DNA of 64,000 nucleotides from Flavobacteriaceae bacterium (GTDB lineage: Bacteria > Bacteroidota > Bacteroidia > Flavobacteriales > Flavobacteriaceae). Location of the stretch: contig JAUXPJ010000014.1 in NCBI GenBank assembly GCA_030683815.1, positions 124,001 through 188,000 of the forward strand, in the 5' to 3' direction. The notes below the pieces were generated by a model. It did not search any database. It was not told the DNA's origin and saw nothing but the letters and a program-made list of their open reading frames with translations. Positions 21,957-47,390 of this stretch are shown here, piece after piece; positions within the stretch are counted from its first letter, which is position 1; each line of letters starts with the position of its first letter. The translations under genes and the position numbers were made by a program.

Positions 21957-22102
21957 ATTTCAAAATTTATATGTTGATTTCTTTACAAGCACTATCAGGT
22001 ATAAAATGATTAATGAGTGAATTTTTGATAAGCTCTGCACAACCTCGAAATACATTTTGTCAACTTATTAAAAAACATCTACTTTATCGAGCATTTCCTT
22101 TT

Positions 22103-22144
22103 GCTTACTGCTTATTGCTTATTGCTTATTGCTTACTGCCTAAT
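22103..22144. repeat. Heptamer tandem repeat GCTTA(C/T)T
   Basis: Six adjacent 7-bp units: GCTTACT, GCTTATT three times, GCTTACT, GCCTAAT. It lies between the orphan gene and pdxH. Confidence 0.85.
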
Positions 22145-28784: not shown

Positions 28785-28954
28785 TTGTAATGTTCTTAAT
28801 GTTCTTAATGTTTGAAAGTTATTTACTAGTATTTGGTATCAAGTATCTGGTATCAAGTATCTGGTATCAAGTACTAACTAAATTTTTCATTTTTAATTAT
28901 TCATTATCAATTTACTTTTGCCTACTGCCTACTGCCTACTGCTTACTGCTTTTT
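28785..28954. repeat. Cluster of three short tandem repeat tracts between iorA and iorB
   Basis: Tract 1 (about 28785-28825): nonamers of the ATGTTCTTA type. Tract 2 (28829-28877): seven heptamers GTATTTG, GTATCAA, GTATCTG, GTATCAA, GTATCTG, GTATCAA, GTACTAA. Tract 3 (28920-28954): GCCTACT three times, GCTTACT, GCTTTTT. The spacer has no ORF worth calling. Confidence 0.9.
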
Positions 28955-28956
28955 GC

Positions 28957-36600: not shown

Positions 36601-37902
36601 ATGGAAAAGATTTTTAAAAAATCAGAAAAATTATACCAAGAAGGTTTGGTGCATTTGGTGGGAGCGGTAAACTCACCAGTTAGAGCATTTAAATCGGTAG
36701 GAGGAAATCCCTTGTTCATCAAAAAAGCAAAAGGAAGCACCATTATTGATGCAGATGGAAATCGTTATGTTGATTATGTTCTTTCATACGGACCCATGAT
36801 TTTAGGTCATCGACATAAAAAAGTGCAAAAAGCTATTATGAAGGCGTTGAAAAATGGCTATTCTTTTGGTGCGTCATCAGAAGATGAAATAAAATTGGCT
36901 AAAATTATTTGTGATGCATTTCCATCTACAGATAAAGTTCGCTTTGTAAACTCAGGAACTGAGGCTGTTTTCAGTGCCATTCGTTTGGCGCGTGCTTTTG
37001 CAGAAAAAGATAAAATCATCAAGTTTTCGGGTTGTTATCACGGACATTCAGATTCGCTTTTGGTGGCTGCCGGTTCCGGACTTGCTACTTTAAGTATTCC
37101 CGGAAGTAAAGGAGTTCCTGCGGATGCCGTAAAAGATACCTTGATTGCAGAATACAATAATATTGAAAGTGTGAAGCAACTGATTGCGCAGCATAAAGAT
37201 ATTGCCGCGGTAATTATTGAGCCGGTTGCCGGAAATATGGGCGTGGTGCTGCCAAAAGACAACTTCTTAAAAGAGTTGAAAATCTTGTTAGATGAACATC
37301 ATATTTTATTGATTGCTGATGAGGTAATGACCGGTTTCCGTTCCAAATTTGGAGGAGCCATTGACTTTTTTGATGTACAACCAGACATCGTTTGCTTGGG
37401 TAAAGTAATCGGTGGAGGTTTTCCCGTTGGAGCGTATGCCGCCAGAAATGAAATTATGGAAATGGTTTCACCTTTAGGTCCGGTGTATCAAGCGGGAACT
37501 TTATCGGGTAATCCAATTGCGATGGCTTCCGGTATTGCCACGTTAAAAGAACTAAAAAAACAAAATCCGTATGATCAATTTAATTTAAATGCGGAGAGAT
37601 TAGAACAAATCATATTAGATGCTGCTAAAGAAAATGGCATTGATGTAGTGGTAAACCGATTTGGTTCGATGATCAATCCGTTCTTTACAAAAGAAGAAGT
37701 AATAGATTTTAAATCAGCTCAAACAAGTGATACAGAAGCATTTGGAATTTTCTTCTGGGAATTAATTCAAAACGGATTGTTTATTCCGCCTTCCCAATTT
37801 GAATCATGGTTTTTATCATCCGCTTTAACAGAAGAAGATTTTGAAAAAACAACAAAAGCAATCAATGCCGCGATGAAGAAAGTGGCGGAATCAAGAAAAT
37901 AG
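36601..37902 (+). CDS. hemL: Glutamate-1-semialdehyde 2,1-aminomutase
   Basis: 433 residues; a PLP enzyme that makes 5-aminolevulinate, second step of the C5 pathway. The PLP lysine is in CLGKVIGGGFPVGAY, the Asp in LIADEVMTGFR, and N-terminal GGVNSPVRAFK appears here as GAVNSPVRAFKSVGG. RFVNSGTEAVFSAIRLAR is also diagnostic. The stop TAG is itself the first bases of the GTATCAA/GTATCTG repeat tract, so the repeat abuts the gene exactly. The following gene is not a heme gene. Confidence 0.96.
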   Translation: MEKIFKKSEKLYQEGLVHLVGAVNSPVRAFKSVGGNPLFIKKAKGSTIIDADGNRYVDYVLSYGPMILGHRHKKVQKAIMKALKNGYSFGASSEDEIKLAKIICDAFPSTDKVRFVNSGTEAVFSAIRLARAFAEKDKIIKFSGCYHGHSDSLLVAAGSGLATLSIPGSKGVPADAVKDTLIAEYNNIESVKQLIAQHKDIAAVIIEPVAGNMGVVLPKDNFLKELKILLDEHHILLIADEVMTGFRSKFGGAIDFFDVQPDIVCLGKVIGGGFPVGAYAARNEIMEMVSPLGPVYQAGTLSGNPIAMASGIATLKELKKQNPYDQFNLNAERLEQIILDAAKENGIDVVVNRFGSMINPFFTKEEVIDFKSAQTSDTEAFGIFFWELIQNGLFIPPSQFESWFLSSALTEEDFEKTTKAINAAMKKVAESRK

Positions 37903-37943
37903 TATCAAGTATCTGGTATCAAGTATCTGGTATCAAGTATCAA
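37902..37943. repeat. GTATCAA/GTATCTG heptamer tract after hemL
   Basis: Six adjacent units: GTATCAA, GTATCTG, GTATCAA, GTATCTG, GTATCAA, GTATCAA. The first base is the last base of the hemL stop codon. The same units occur at 28829-28877. Confidence 0.92.
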
Positions 37944-37972
37944 ATACAAGTGGATTAAATTAAGATAATTAT

Positions 37973-38326
37973 ATGCACAATTTTAAGGAATTAAATAGTT
38001 GGAAAGAAGCAAAAGATTTAAGTGTCTTAATTATTAAGTTAACTTCGACCTTTCCTATTTCTGAAATCTATGGAATTTCAGCTCAAATTAATAGAGCCGC
38101 AGTTTCAATTCCTTCAAACATTGCAGAGGGAGCAGGGAGAAATGGTGATAAAGATTTTGCAAGATTTATAGGAATCGCAATTGGTTCTTCCTTTGAACTA
38201 GAAACGCAACTTATTATTGCAAATGAACTTTCCTATTTGAATAATGAAAAATCTGACGAATTGATATTGAAGTTAAATAGTATTCAAAAAATGCTGGTTA
38301 ATTTCCAAAAACATTTAAGTAAATAA
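37973..38326 (+). CDS. Four-helix-bundle protein of the 23S rRNA intervening-sequence (S23/IVP) family
   Basis: 117 residues. The family core RAAVSIPSNIAEGAGR (near residue 42) and LNSWKEAKDLSVLIIKL are clear; the remainder forms helices. Members are found inside 23S rRNA intervening sequences of Leptospira and others, and as stand-alone genes; related folds serve as Avd accessory proteins in diversity-generating retroelements. The molecular function is unknown; no reverse transcriptase or rRNA is present here. It interrupts the heme run and is flanked by GTATCTG-type heptamers, direct on both sides and inverted on the right, so it may be a small mobile cassette. Confidence 0.88.
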   Translation: MHNFKELNSWKEAKDLSVLIIKLTSTFPISEIYGISAQINRAAVSIPSNIAEGAGRNGDKDFARFIGIAIGSSFELETQLIIANELSYLNNEKSDELILKLNSIQKMLVNFQKHLSK

Positions 38327-38328
38327 TT

Positions 38329-38409
38329 GTATCACGTTTCTAGTATTTAGTATCAAGACAGATGAATGTTATGAATACCAGATACCAGATACCAGATACC
38401 AGATACCAT
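38329..38409. repeat. Degenerate direct and inverted heptamers after the four-helix-bundle gene
   Basis: Direct degenerate units GTATCAC, GTTTCTA, GTATTTA, GTATCAA fill 38329-38356, starting two bases after the stop. Then ATACCAG repeats four times and ends ATACCAT (38375-38409). ATACCAG is the reverse complement of CTGGTAT, the junction of the upstream tract. Confidence 0.9.
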
Positions 38410-38415
38410 AAAGAA

Positions 38416-39447
38416 ATGATAAAAAACGATTTATTTTTAAGAGCCCTAAAAGGAGAAACAGTAGAGCGTCCACCGGTTTGGTTGATGCGTCAGGCAGGAA
38501 GATATTTACCGGAATTTATTGCATTACGTGACCAATATGACTTTTTTACCCGATGTCAAACGCCGGAATTAGCGTCAGAAATTACGGTTCAACCCATCAG
38601 AAGATATGGAATGGATGCCGCTATTTTATTTTCTGATATACTGGTGGTTCCTCAAGCCATGGATATTGAAGTGATTATGAAAGAAAATACAGGACCTTTC
38701 ATTCCAAAGCCAATTCGTTCTCAAAAAGACGTGGATGCTATTCAAATTCCGGATGTAAATATTGAATTAGGTTATGTAATGGAAGCCATCAAAATGACCA
38801 AAGAAATGTTGAATGATGACATTCCGCTCATCGGTTTTGCTGGCTCACCGTGGACAATTTTATGTTATGTAGTTCAAGGTCAGGGTTCAAAATCGTATGA
38901 TATTGCTAAAGGATTTTGTTTTGAACATCCAGCTGCAGCACATATGTTATTGCAAAAAATTACCGATACAACTATTGCATATCTAAAAGCAAAAGTAGCG
39001 GCTGGTGTAAATGCAGTTCAAGTTTTTGATAGCTGGGGAGGAATGTTATCTCCAGTTGATTATCAAGAATTTTCATGGAAATACATCAACCAAATTATAG
39101 AAGCGTTAAAAGATGATGCTCCTGTAATTGCCTTTGGTAAAGGTTGTTGGTTTGCATTGGAAGAAATGTCTAAATCTAATGCTTCTGCCTTAGGAGTAGA
39201 TTGGACGATTACTCCGAAAATGGCACGTCAGTTAACCGGTGGAAATATTACATTACAAGGTAATTTTGATCCATCACGCTTATTATCACCACCGGCAGTT
39301 ATCAAGAAAATGGTTACAGAAATGATTGATGAATTTGGAAAAGATAAATTAGTGGCTAATCTTGGGCATGGTATTTTGCCAAATATACCTTTAGATAATG
39401 CCAAAGCATTTGTTGATGCTGTTAAGGAATATCAAGTTAAAAATTAA
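38416..39447 (+). CDS. hemE: Uroporphyrinogen decarboxylase
   Basis: 343 residues; makes coproporphyrinogen III. Motifs: [16 protein letters not shown] near the N terminus, [40 protein letters not shown] and [14 protein letters not shown] at 38416 was chosen because the frame upstream (from 38362) merely translates the ATACCAG repeat. The heptamer tract ends seven bases before this start, so it occupies the ribosome-binding region. A further repeat-rich spacer separates it from hemN. Confidence 0.96.
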
Positions 39448-39488
39448 AAATGAATAATTAAAAAGTGATAAGAAATAATAATTTTAAT

Positions 39489-39540
39489 TTTTGACTTTTA
39501 ACTTTTCAACTTTATTACATTATTACTTTTCAACTTTAAA
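39489..39540. repeat. Degenerate TTNACTT repeats between hemE and hemN
   Basis: TTGACTT, TTAACTT and later CTTTTCAACTTT-like pieces recur in an AT-rich 100-base spacer. The 7-bp period is clear only for the first units. Confidence 0.5.
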
Positions 39541-47151: not shown

Positions 47152-47182
47152 ATTTTTTAATAATTGATAATGAATAATAATA

Positions 47183-47348
47183 AGCAATAGGCAGTTAGCA
47201 GTATCAGTTATCAGTAGGTAATAGGTGTTGTAAGCATATAATGCAATAAAGTTAAAAAGTTATGCCTTATTCATTTCCAAATTTCTTTATTTATTTTTAA
47301 TTGTCCATTGTTAATTATCAATTGTCCATTTTACATACTCAATACTCA
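47183..47348. repeat. Degenerate heptamer tracts between the TPR gene and DUF368 gene
   Basis: Left tract (about 47183-47230): AGCAATA, GGCAGTT, AGCAGTA, TCAGTTA, TCAGTAG, GTAATAG. Right tract: ATTGTCC, ATTGTTA, ATTATCA, ATTGTCC, ATTTTAC (47300-47334) then ATACTCA twice (47335-47348). All have a 7-base period. Confidence 0.8.
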
Positions 47349-47390
47349 AATCTAAGATAATTGATATTAATTTTCGTATTAATAAAATAG

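Follow-up and report, generated by a model that had tools for sequence, protein, structure and literature searches.

Proteins of the S23/IVP family (PF05635) are widespread and, to our knowledge, have no known function; nor do we know of an agreed explanation for heptanucleotide repeats. In the 23S rRNA intervening sequence (IVS) of Coxiella three tandem heptamers precede the S23p open reading frame (ORF), in a copy number that varies between strains (PMC4990558), and in bacteria of the candidate phyla radiation (CPR) IVP ORFs are found in inserts of 16S and 23S rRNA (PMC11270868). PF05635 and Avd are homologous (PMC10053308). Here we describe an IVP gene located between hemL and hemE and enclosed by inverted arrays of heptamers. 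It lies in a 64,000-nucleotide stretch (the window, whose numbering is used throughout) of a Flavobacteriaceae genome, positions 124,001 to 188,000 of contig JAUXPJ010000014.1 (GCA_030683815.1).

Heptanucleotide repeats are known from Xanthomonas and Nostoc (GGGAATC, GGGGATT), where they are generally not associated with mobile elements; those of Xanthomonas are mostly intergenic, typically consist of four units, form 70 and 75 inverted pairs and lie near the upstream ORF (PMC4692102). Others have been reported from Beggiatoaceae (TAACTGA), Cyanobacteria and Bacteroidetes (PMC4679880) and from Geobacter (GGACCGG; PMC2700814). The main texts of these three papers make no mention of S23, and no connection between the repeats and IVP/S23 genes is drawn there. 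Our literature search, run without subscription papers and preprints, revealed no publication that joins the IVP family with such arrays outside rRNA, which is weak evidence.

On balance, we favour the view that the hemL-hemE unit (Table 1) is a mobile, operon-riding element with inverted heptamer ends, an intergenic counterpart of the 23S rRNA IVSs. Its protein matches PF05635 (23S_rRNA_IVP) at 127.6 bits (cut-off 33.8, E=2.8e-37) and TIGR02436 at 122.8 bits (cut-off 24), so that the family assignment of the original prediction, made from the letters alone, is borne out. The GTATC units of the left array start at 37902, 37909, 37916, 37923, 37930 and 37937, and the final G of the hemL stop codon TAG, which ends at 37902, is also the first G of the array. 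At the other end, the last ATACCA ends at 38408, 7 bases upstream of the hemE ATG at 38416. The overlap with the hemL stop, the ORF and the six, four and five heptamers listed in that prediction were confirmed to the base, and the gene does lie outside rRNA, as it had stated: it is located between hemL and hemE, and this locus (L002) gave no Rfam match. The left and right flanks match in inverted orientation with a score of 25, compared with 6.5 when partners are swapped. As in an IVS, the IVP ORF is in sense orientation inside terminal inverted repeats. It should be mentioned that the host genes (hemL, hemE, groES, groEL, carB, accB, accC) were named by reading their translations, annotated plasmids excepted.

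The genome of the window (G000) contains six IVP genes. Four of them (L001, L002, L004, L005) have a strong period-7 run on both sides, each with a different word; L003 is periodic at 8 nucleotides (nt) on its left side, and no clear array is seen at L006. Because each of these genes has another word, periodicity and inverted matching were measured without a fixed word, and a strong run was defined as a self-match of at least 12 at lag 7.

The layout of an IVP gene within inverted period-7 arrays is well shown to be general across bacteria. In Flavobacteriales, part of the listed IVP places (own genome included) was taken, and 103 matches yielded 102 IVP genes, 98 of them distinct; an IVP gene had to score at least 40 over at least 70 model positions. 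Full 120-nt flanks were available for 96 of the 98 loci. A lag-7 run was present in 46.9% of these 192 near flanks, as against 0.5% of 189 flanks at a distance of 700-900 nt; dinucleotide shuffles likewise gave 0.5%. Of the 96 loci, 59 had such a run next to the gene, 31 of them on both sides. Lags 5, 6, 9, 10 and 11 gave 0-3%, lag 8 gave 8.9% and lag 14 gave 32%. The left flank matched the reverse complement of the right one (score at least 14) in 68 of the 96 loci, compared with two for swapped partners, three for shuffled sequences and 20 in direct orientation.

Similar values were obtained in a second set from many phyla, for which one genome per species was scanned and the best 80 of at least 590 confirmed stretches were kept, with phyla taken from record titles. 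Full flanks were available for 78 loci; 41.7% of their 156 flanks contained a lag-7 run vs 2.0% of 150 far flanks, with runs on at least one side in 44 loci and on both sides in 21. Left-right inverted matching was found in 49 of the 78 loci (swapped 2, direct 9). Among 14 IVP loci of cyanobacterial plasmids, also with 120-nt flanks, ten had a run on at least one side and six on both, and two (L165, L168) had an 8-nt period; the IVP gene of a Nostoc edaphicum plasmid has AGTAGGG on the left and CCCTACT on the right. Among the plasmid units, two are flanked by cas6 and cas4, and a third by cas10 and a gene of the Cmr3 family. The available flanks of 100 of the 192 IVP loci (the 80 from many phyla and L001-L020) gave no Rfam match to rRNA and one to an FMN riboswitch, and a location of these units in rRNA was rejected. 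We also observed that in 101 loci with paired arrays the strand running inward is G-rich and C-poor at both ends (left G 0.29, C 0.10).

The units are closely fitted to operons. Orientation was readable in 170 of the 192 loci, using a simple ORF caller that is error-prone in G+C-rich DNA: both neighbours run along the IVP gene in 135 loci and against it in four, 24 are mixed and seven have distant neighbours. Relative to the end of the upstream stop codon, the median start of the left array is at -1.5 nt (n=100; quartiles -10, 7), and the median distance between the right array and the start codon that follows is 9 nt (n=83; quartiles 1.5, 17.5). The unit of the window is typical in its operon fit. 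Since its right array is readable in frame with hemE, the ORF caller places the hemE start at 38362; a start there would prepend the translated array to HemE. This ATG and the right array are also present in the relative G002. In several proteobacterial records (L180, L200, L183, L175) IVP genes are located just upstream of presumed carB, a recurrent site, with GGGACC-type arrays in three of the four.

The sense orientation of the units within operons also suits another explanation, namely that the arrays were selected to pair in mRNA, so that RNase III would cut the stem and the IVP insert would be processed out as in 23S rRNA, leaving the operon unharmed. In the fold predicted for the window unit, the two arrays pair with each other as the outer stem (z -5.9, none of 100 shuffles as stable), at least 15 left-right flank pairs are formed in 86% of 188 loci (62% with swapped partners), and the Coxiella IVS, which has three heptamers before the S23p ORF and inverted repeats at its ends, is cleaved in vitro by RNase III (PMC4990558). 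However, arm mismatches in 101 loci comprise 76 that are compatible with pairing in the sense RNA and 113 in the antisense RNA (G-U pairs; p=0.009, in the wrong direction), the sense fold is more stable than the antisense one in just 102 of 188 loci, and neither the lineage-specific words nor the dispersed solo arrays described below are explained. We therefore consider a selected RNA stem unsupported, with its wobble test reversed and sense folds hardly favoured, and retain it as a rather unlikely rival.

A further line of evidence for a mobile element concerns the words themselves, which were compared for the 138 of 192 IVP genes that have arrays. Pairs were regarded as occupying different sites when they had no homologous neighbour within 1.6 kb, a definition under which contig ends can split one site in two. 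Among different-site pairs with IVP identity of at least 0.7, seven out of ten share at least 1/4 of their 7-mers; the corresponding numbers are 10 of 46 at identity 0.6-0.7 and 68 of 8882 below 0.5. For the 56 different-site pairs with at least 0.6 identity the mean word overlap is 0.203, about 20-fold above permutation (mean 0.010, maximum 0.054; 0 of 2000 permutations). Since IVP genes of one genome differ in their words, the word is not dictated by the host genome. Thus, the word tracks the IVP lineage and not the site, and the array ends appear to travel with the IVP gene to different sites, as judged by the words that pairs lacking a common neighbour share. The original prediction had asked whether GTATCAA/GTATCTG tracts flank IVP genes beyond chance. 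This is true of the period-7 design but not of that word, which is confined to one lineage, other IVP genes having others; as a general IVP mark GTATCTG was rejected.

Comparison within the genus showed that one site can differ in content between genomes. The hemL-hemE site is occupied by the GTATC unit in G000 and G002, by a different IVP gene with GCYAA-type arrays in G001, and in G003 it measures 22 nt and contains neither array nor IVP gene. The unit had been predicted to be inserted in the hem operon, and these empty and occupied sites agree with that, as does the presence of an IVP gene in only four of 30 regions upstream of hemE (own included). All four have a lag-7 run, compared with one of the 26 regions lacking an IVP gene; this one (G020) contains, by eye, an inverted heptamer pair. 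The G003 junction is, by eye, too diverged for a target-site duplication to be read. In G001 (L110) the array seems, again by eye, to extend into the final residues of HemL. At groES-groEL, an IVP unit is present in G000 and G002, while G001 (L290) has a solo array only, made of the same word as the hemL-hemE unit of G001; in G003 no such site was found.

The groES-groEL copies of G000 and G002 are closer to each other than their surroundings. Identity is 98-100% for their IVP blocks, compared with 86-93% for the complete groES and groEL blocks, 93% for the right spacer and 70% for the left array; synonymous divergence (dS) is 0.028 for the IVP gene vs 0.41 for groEL. At hemL-hemE the same two genomes give a dS of 0.25 for the IVP gene vs 0.78-0.95 for its neighbours, and two further inter-genome pairs give 0.20 vs 0.62-0.83 and 0.81 vs 1.46-1.79; in a pair of G001 contigs the IVP dS is higher than that of the single short neighbour. 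We read the groES-groEL copies as the putative result of a recent exchange. The ratio of nonsynonymous to synonymous divergence (dN/dS) of the IVP gene is 0.11-0.34 in five pairs (one with just two differences) and 0.13 between the window copy and that of G002; the protein is under purifying selection. Two loci of G001 (L104, L114) have IVP copies that are 87% identical and share the array word, next to a 66-codon neighbour that is 98.5% identical; duplication, strain mixture or an assembly effect are candidate causes.

The resident word also forms arrays scattered over the genome without the gene. The triple-unit GTATC pattern GTATCNNGTATCNNGTATC was searched in 60 genomes, own included, and gave 33 matches in G000 (reversed control 0), 18 in G002, eight in G001 and one each in G005 and G021; the other 55 genomes, G003 among them, had none. 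By position, about six of the 33 matches in G000 and about two of the 18 in G002 belong to the arrays of the resident unit itself. The resident GTATC word thus forms dispersed arrays in both G000 and G002. Two solo arrays of G000 (L044, L061) consist of two mutually inverted parts around a short spacer, without an IVP gene, and two others are included in Table 1. According to the background script, the window contains six intergenic lag-7 arrays, at least one of them being the left array of the hemL-hemE unit; G000 is richer in them than the relatives. Besides, two IVP-less period-7 arrays with mixed heptamers on both sides lie 60 bp apart at 47157-47226 and 47287-47358, and a solo TGCTTAC/TGCTTAT array without an IVP gene is located at 22102-22142.

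Table 1. The hemL-hemE unit, its host genes and IVP-less arrays of the window
Feature	Position	Strand	Basis or remark
Unit: left heptamer array, IVP gene and inverted right array	37902-38409		
Left array: six GTATCNN heptamers from the hemL stop codon, with degenerate tail	37902-37946	+	lag-7 segment
IVP/S23 four-helix-bundle gene, 117 aa, PF05635	37973-38326	+	ORF and profile match
Four degenerate direct heptamers GTATCAC GTTTCTA GTATTTA GTATCAA	38329-38356	+	2 bases past the IVP stop
Right array: five heptamers of the ATACCAG type, reverse-complementary to the left array	38375-38409	-	lag-7 score 27
hemL, upstream host gene	36601-37902	+	named by reading the translation
hemE, downstream host gene	38416-39447	+	named by reading the translation
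IVP-less period-7 array between hemE and the next gene	39434-39513		halves look mutually inverted (by eye)
Solo array GTATCAA/GTATCTG beside CTACTGC-type heptamers, without IVP gene	28829-28956		

Other words were searched in the same 60 genomes. Triple units of GCYAA matched 18 of them, and G035 was the only one to match among the 21 genomes without an IVP gene in the matches listed; at least six matches were found in three of four genomes with a flank match and in six of 30 without (p=0.048). G052 had by far the highest count (140); like G005 (29) and G014 (18), it has no matching IVP flank in the fetched set. The pattern CAATTGNCAATTGN, considered as a third lineage word, is palindromic, matched five of the 60 genomes and was rejected as uninformative. 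In Xanthomonas codiaei the published GGGANTN word gave 470 triple-unit matches (control 0), and GGGATTAGGGAATC is located at the start of an IVP gene between presumed accB and accC, with no right-side array seen.

IVP-less arrays such as those of G000 could suggest that the arrays are replication-slippage tracts marking disposable intergenic gaps in which IVP genes merely land; in most genomes, repeats of 5-11 nt are most often heptanucleotides, and polymerase slippage has been proposed for them (cited in PMC4679880). We regard this as quite improbable. Five IVP-rich relatives, sampled over 400 kb outside the listed IVP places, contained five intergenic lag-7 arrays, and 400 kb of six IVP-free genomes contained none. 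Since background arrays are so few, the period-7 excess in the relatives sits at IVP genes and there is no general flood of arrays; their rarity, also in the IVP-less hemE regions, argues against slippage, as do the mostly inverted arrangement of left and right arrays, the dependence of the word on the IVP lineage and the array-free hemL-hemE site of G003. Equally hard to credit is that the IVP protein is a regulator binding heptamers in 5' untranslated regions to control translation of operon genes, with the arrays as its regulon and the IVP units autoregulated: right arrays do stop just before start codons, a translational role has been proposed for TAACTGA arrays (MacGregor 2015, PMC4679880) and the protein is under purifying selection, but the host operons examined (hem, groES-groEL, carA-carB, accB-accC, cas; names partly by reading) share no functional theme, presence switches between sites within the genus, and the IVP genes of one genome have different words.

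The reading as a mobile element leads to a possible mechanism. Two solved homologues, 2gsc and 2rld, contain five chains per entry, and the paper on the X. campestris structure refers in its title to an assembly of five four-helix bundles. A ring of five such bundles might recognise its own word every 7 nt, with about one unit per subunit. The TRAP ring reads evenly spaced triplets. A TRAP-like, word-reading ring would give a fixed period and words that vary between lineages and are constant within one, and by this analogy the IVP protein probably reads its own heptamer. It could also bridge the two inverted arrays, which would provide a unit with defined ends, and bridging may favour the copying by which the unit, or an array alone, would reach further intergenic gaps, the chemistry being done by replication, repair or recombination enzymes of the host. 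We infer that heptamer binding would drive copying of the unit. Judging from the sequence comparisons, IVP units are likely to be mobile. The idea of a small, undescribed transposable or repeat-maintaining unit, put forward in the original prediction, is largely upheld by the inverted arrays in many phyla, the lineage word and the dispersed arrays, its mobility remaining a likely interpretation of these patterns.

Several observations weigh against mobile units of this kind. PF05635 is the only domain found in the window protein, which has no transposase, integrase or nuclease domain. At 37 of the 96 and 34 of the 78 loci neither side has a period-7 array at our threshold; IVP genes lacking heptamer flanks, which had been named as evidence against the idea, thus exist both at these loci and with regard to the exact word, while the design as a whole stands. 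Some loci have units of 8 or 9 nt (L003, L100, L151, L155), of equal length on both sides in the last three, and at L157, L178 and L210 the arrays are direct instead of inverted. In the 400 kb of relatives away from IVP places, lag 7 (five arrays) is no commoner than other lags (six for lag 6), and the difference in array density between IVP-rich and IVP-free genomes (5 vs 0 per 400 kb) is weak when taken alone. The different-site pairs lack independence, since one plasmid trio accounts for three of the best seven, and one of the 56 pairs (L081/L110, overlap 0) was flagged as different but is actually one site. The low IVP dS could reflect constraint on synonymous sites, because all four inter-genome pairs lean alike. 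G001 has its eight GTATC matches without a GTATC-flanked IVP gene among the fetched loci, and the reversed GTATC control gave eight matches across genomes (two in G016, six in G022). GCYAA matches without a cognate IVP gene among the fetched loci occur in G005, G014, G027, G031, G037 and G052, and its reversed control gave 38 matches in seven genomes, all of them IVP carriers; GCYAA was rejected as a second genome-wide test, tracking the fetched IVP genes only partly and having a nonzero control.

The results link PF05635 to heptanucleotide repeats by strong statistics in two samples, and provide many IVP proteins with a predicted target word. Tentatively, IVP units could be mobile elements that lack a transposase and form a class found throughout bacteria, in which a pentameric four-helix-bundle protein reads a lineage-specific 7-nt word whose arrays both make up the inverted ends of the unit and spread by themselves. 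Many of the so far unexplained heptanucleotide repeats of bacteria would then stem from this class, and the rRNA IVSs would be its branch in rRNA. The arrays of Xanthomonas, Nostoc and Geobacter, read as regulatory or structural, may then be ends or traces of such elements, and the nature and spread of rRNA IVSs would become approachable in ordinary operons.

Among the closest known systems are diversity-generating retroelements; unlike their accessory protein Avd, the IVP protein of the window has no match to the Avd profile at E<=1, and the feature tables of the 14 plasmid regions name no reverse transcriptase or template repeat, although no dedicated search was made. One cyanobacterial IVP protein matched bAvd (1.5e-8) and DivGenRetAVD (1.4e-6), both below the cut-offs. 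Carriage by phages is not indicated either, the window protein having no match in 50,697 phage records at E<=0.001. RAYT proteins are tyrosine transposases, and the repetitive extragenic palindromic (REP) sequences are palindromic. Like REPIN-RAYT systems, IVP units consist of a small gene between inverted short repeats that are also dispersed gene-free in the same genome. Unlike them, IVP proteins have no recognised nuclease (profile search of the window protein revealed no RAYT (Y1/HUH) transposase domain), and the repeats are tandem 7-mers, whereas REPs are palindromes. With the Xanthomonas repeats the IVP arrays share their intergenic location and inverted arrangement, and a GGGANTN word stands at the IVP gene of Xanthomonas codiaei. 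With the rRNA IVSs that carry an S23p/IVP ORF (Coxiella, Leptospira, CPR) the window unit shares the protein family, the sense ORF and the terminal inverted repeats; in contrast to them, the IVP units described here lie outside rRNA in the 100 loci scanned, are bounded by two-sided, lineage-specific arrays and have solo arrays elsewhere in the genome.

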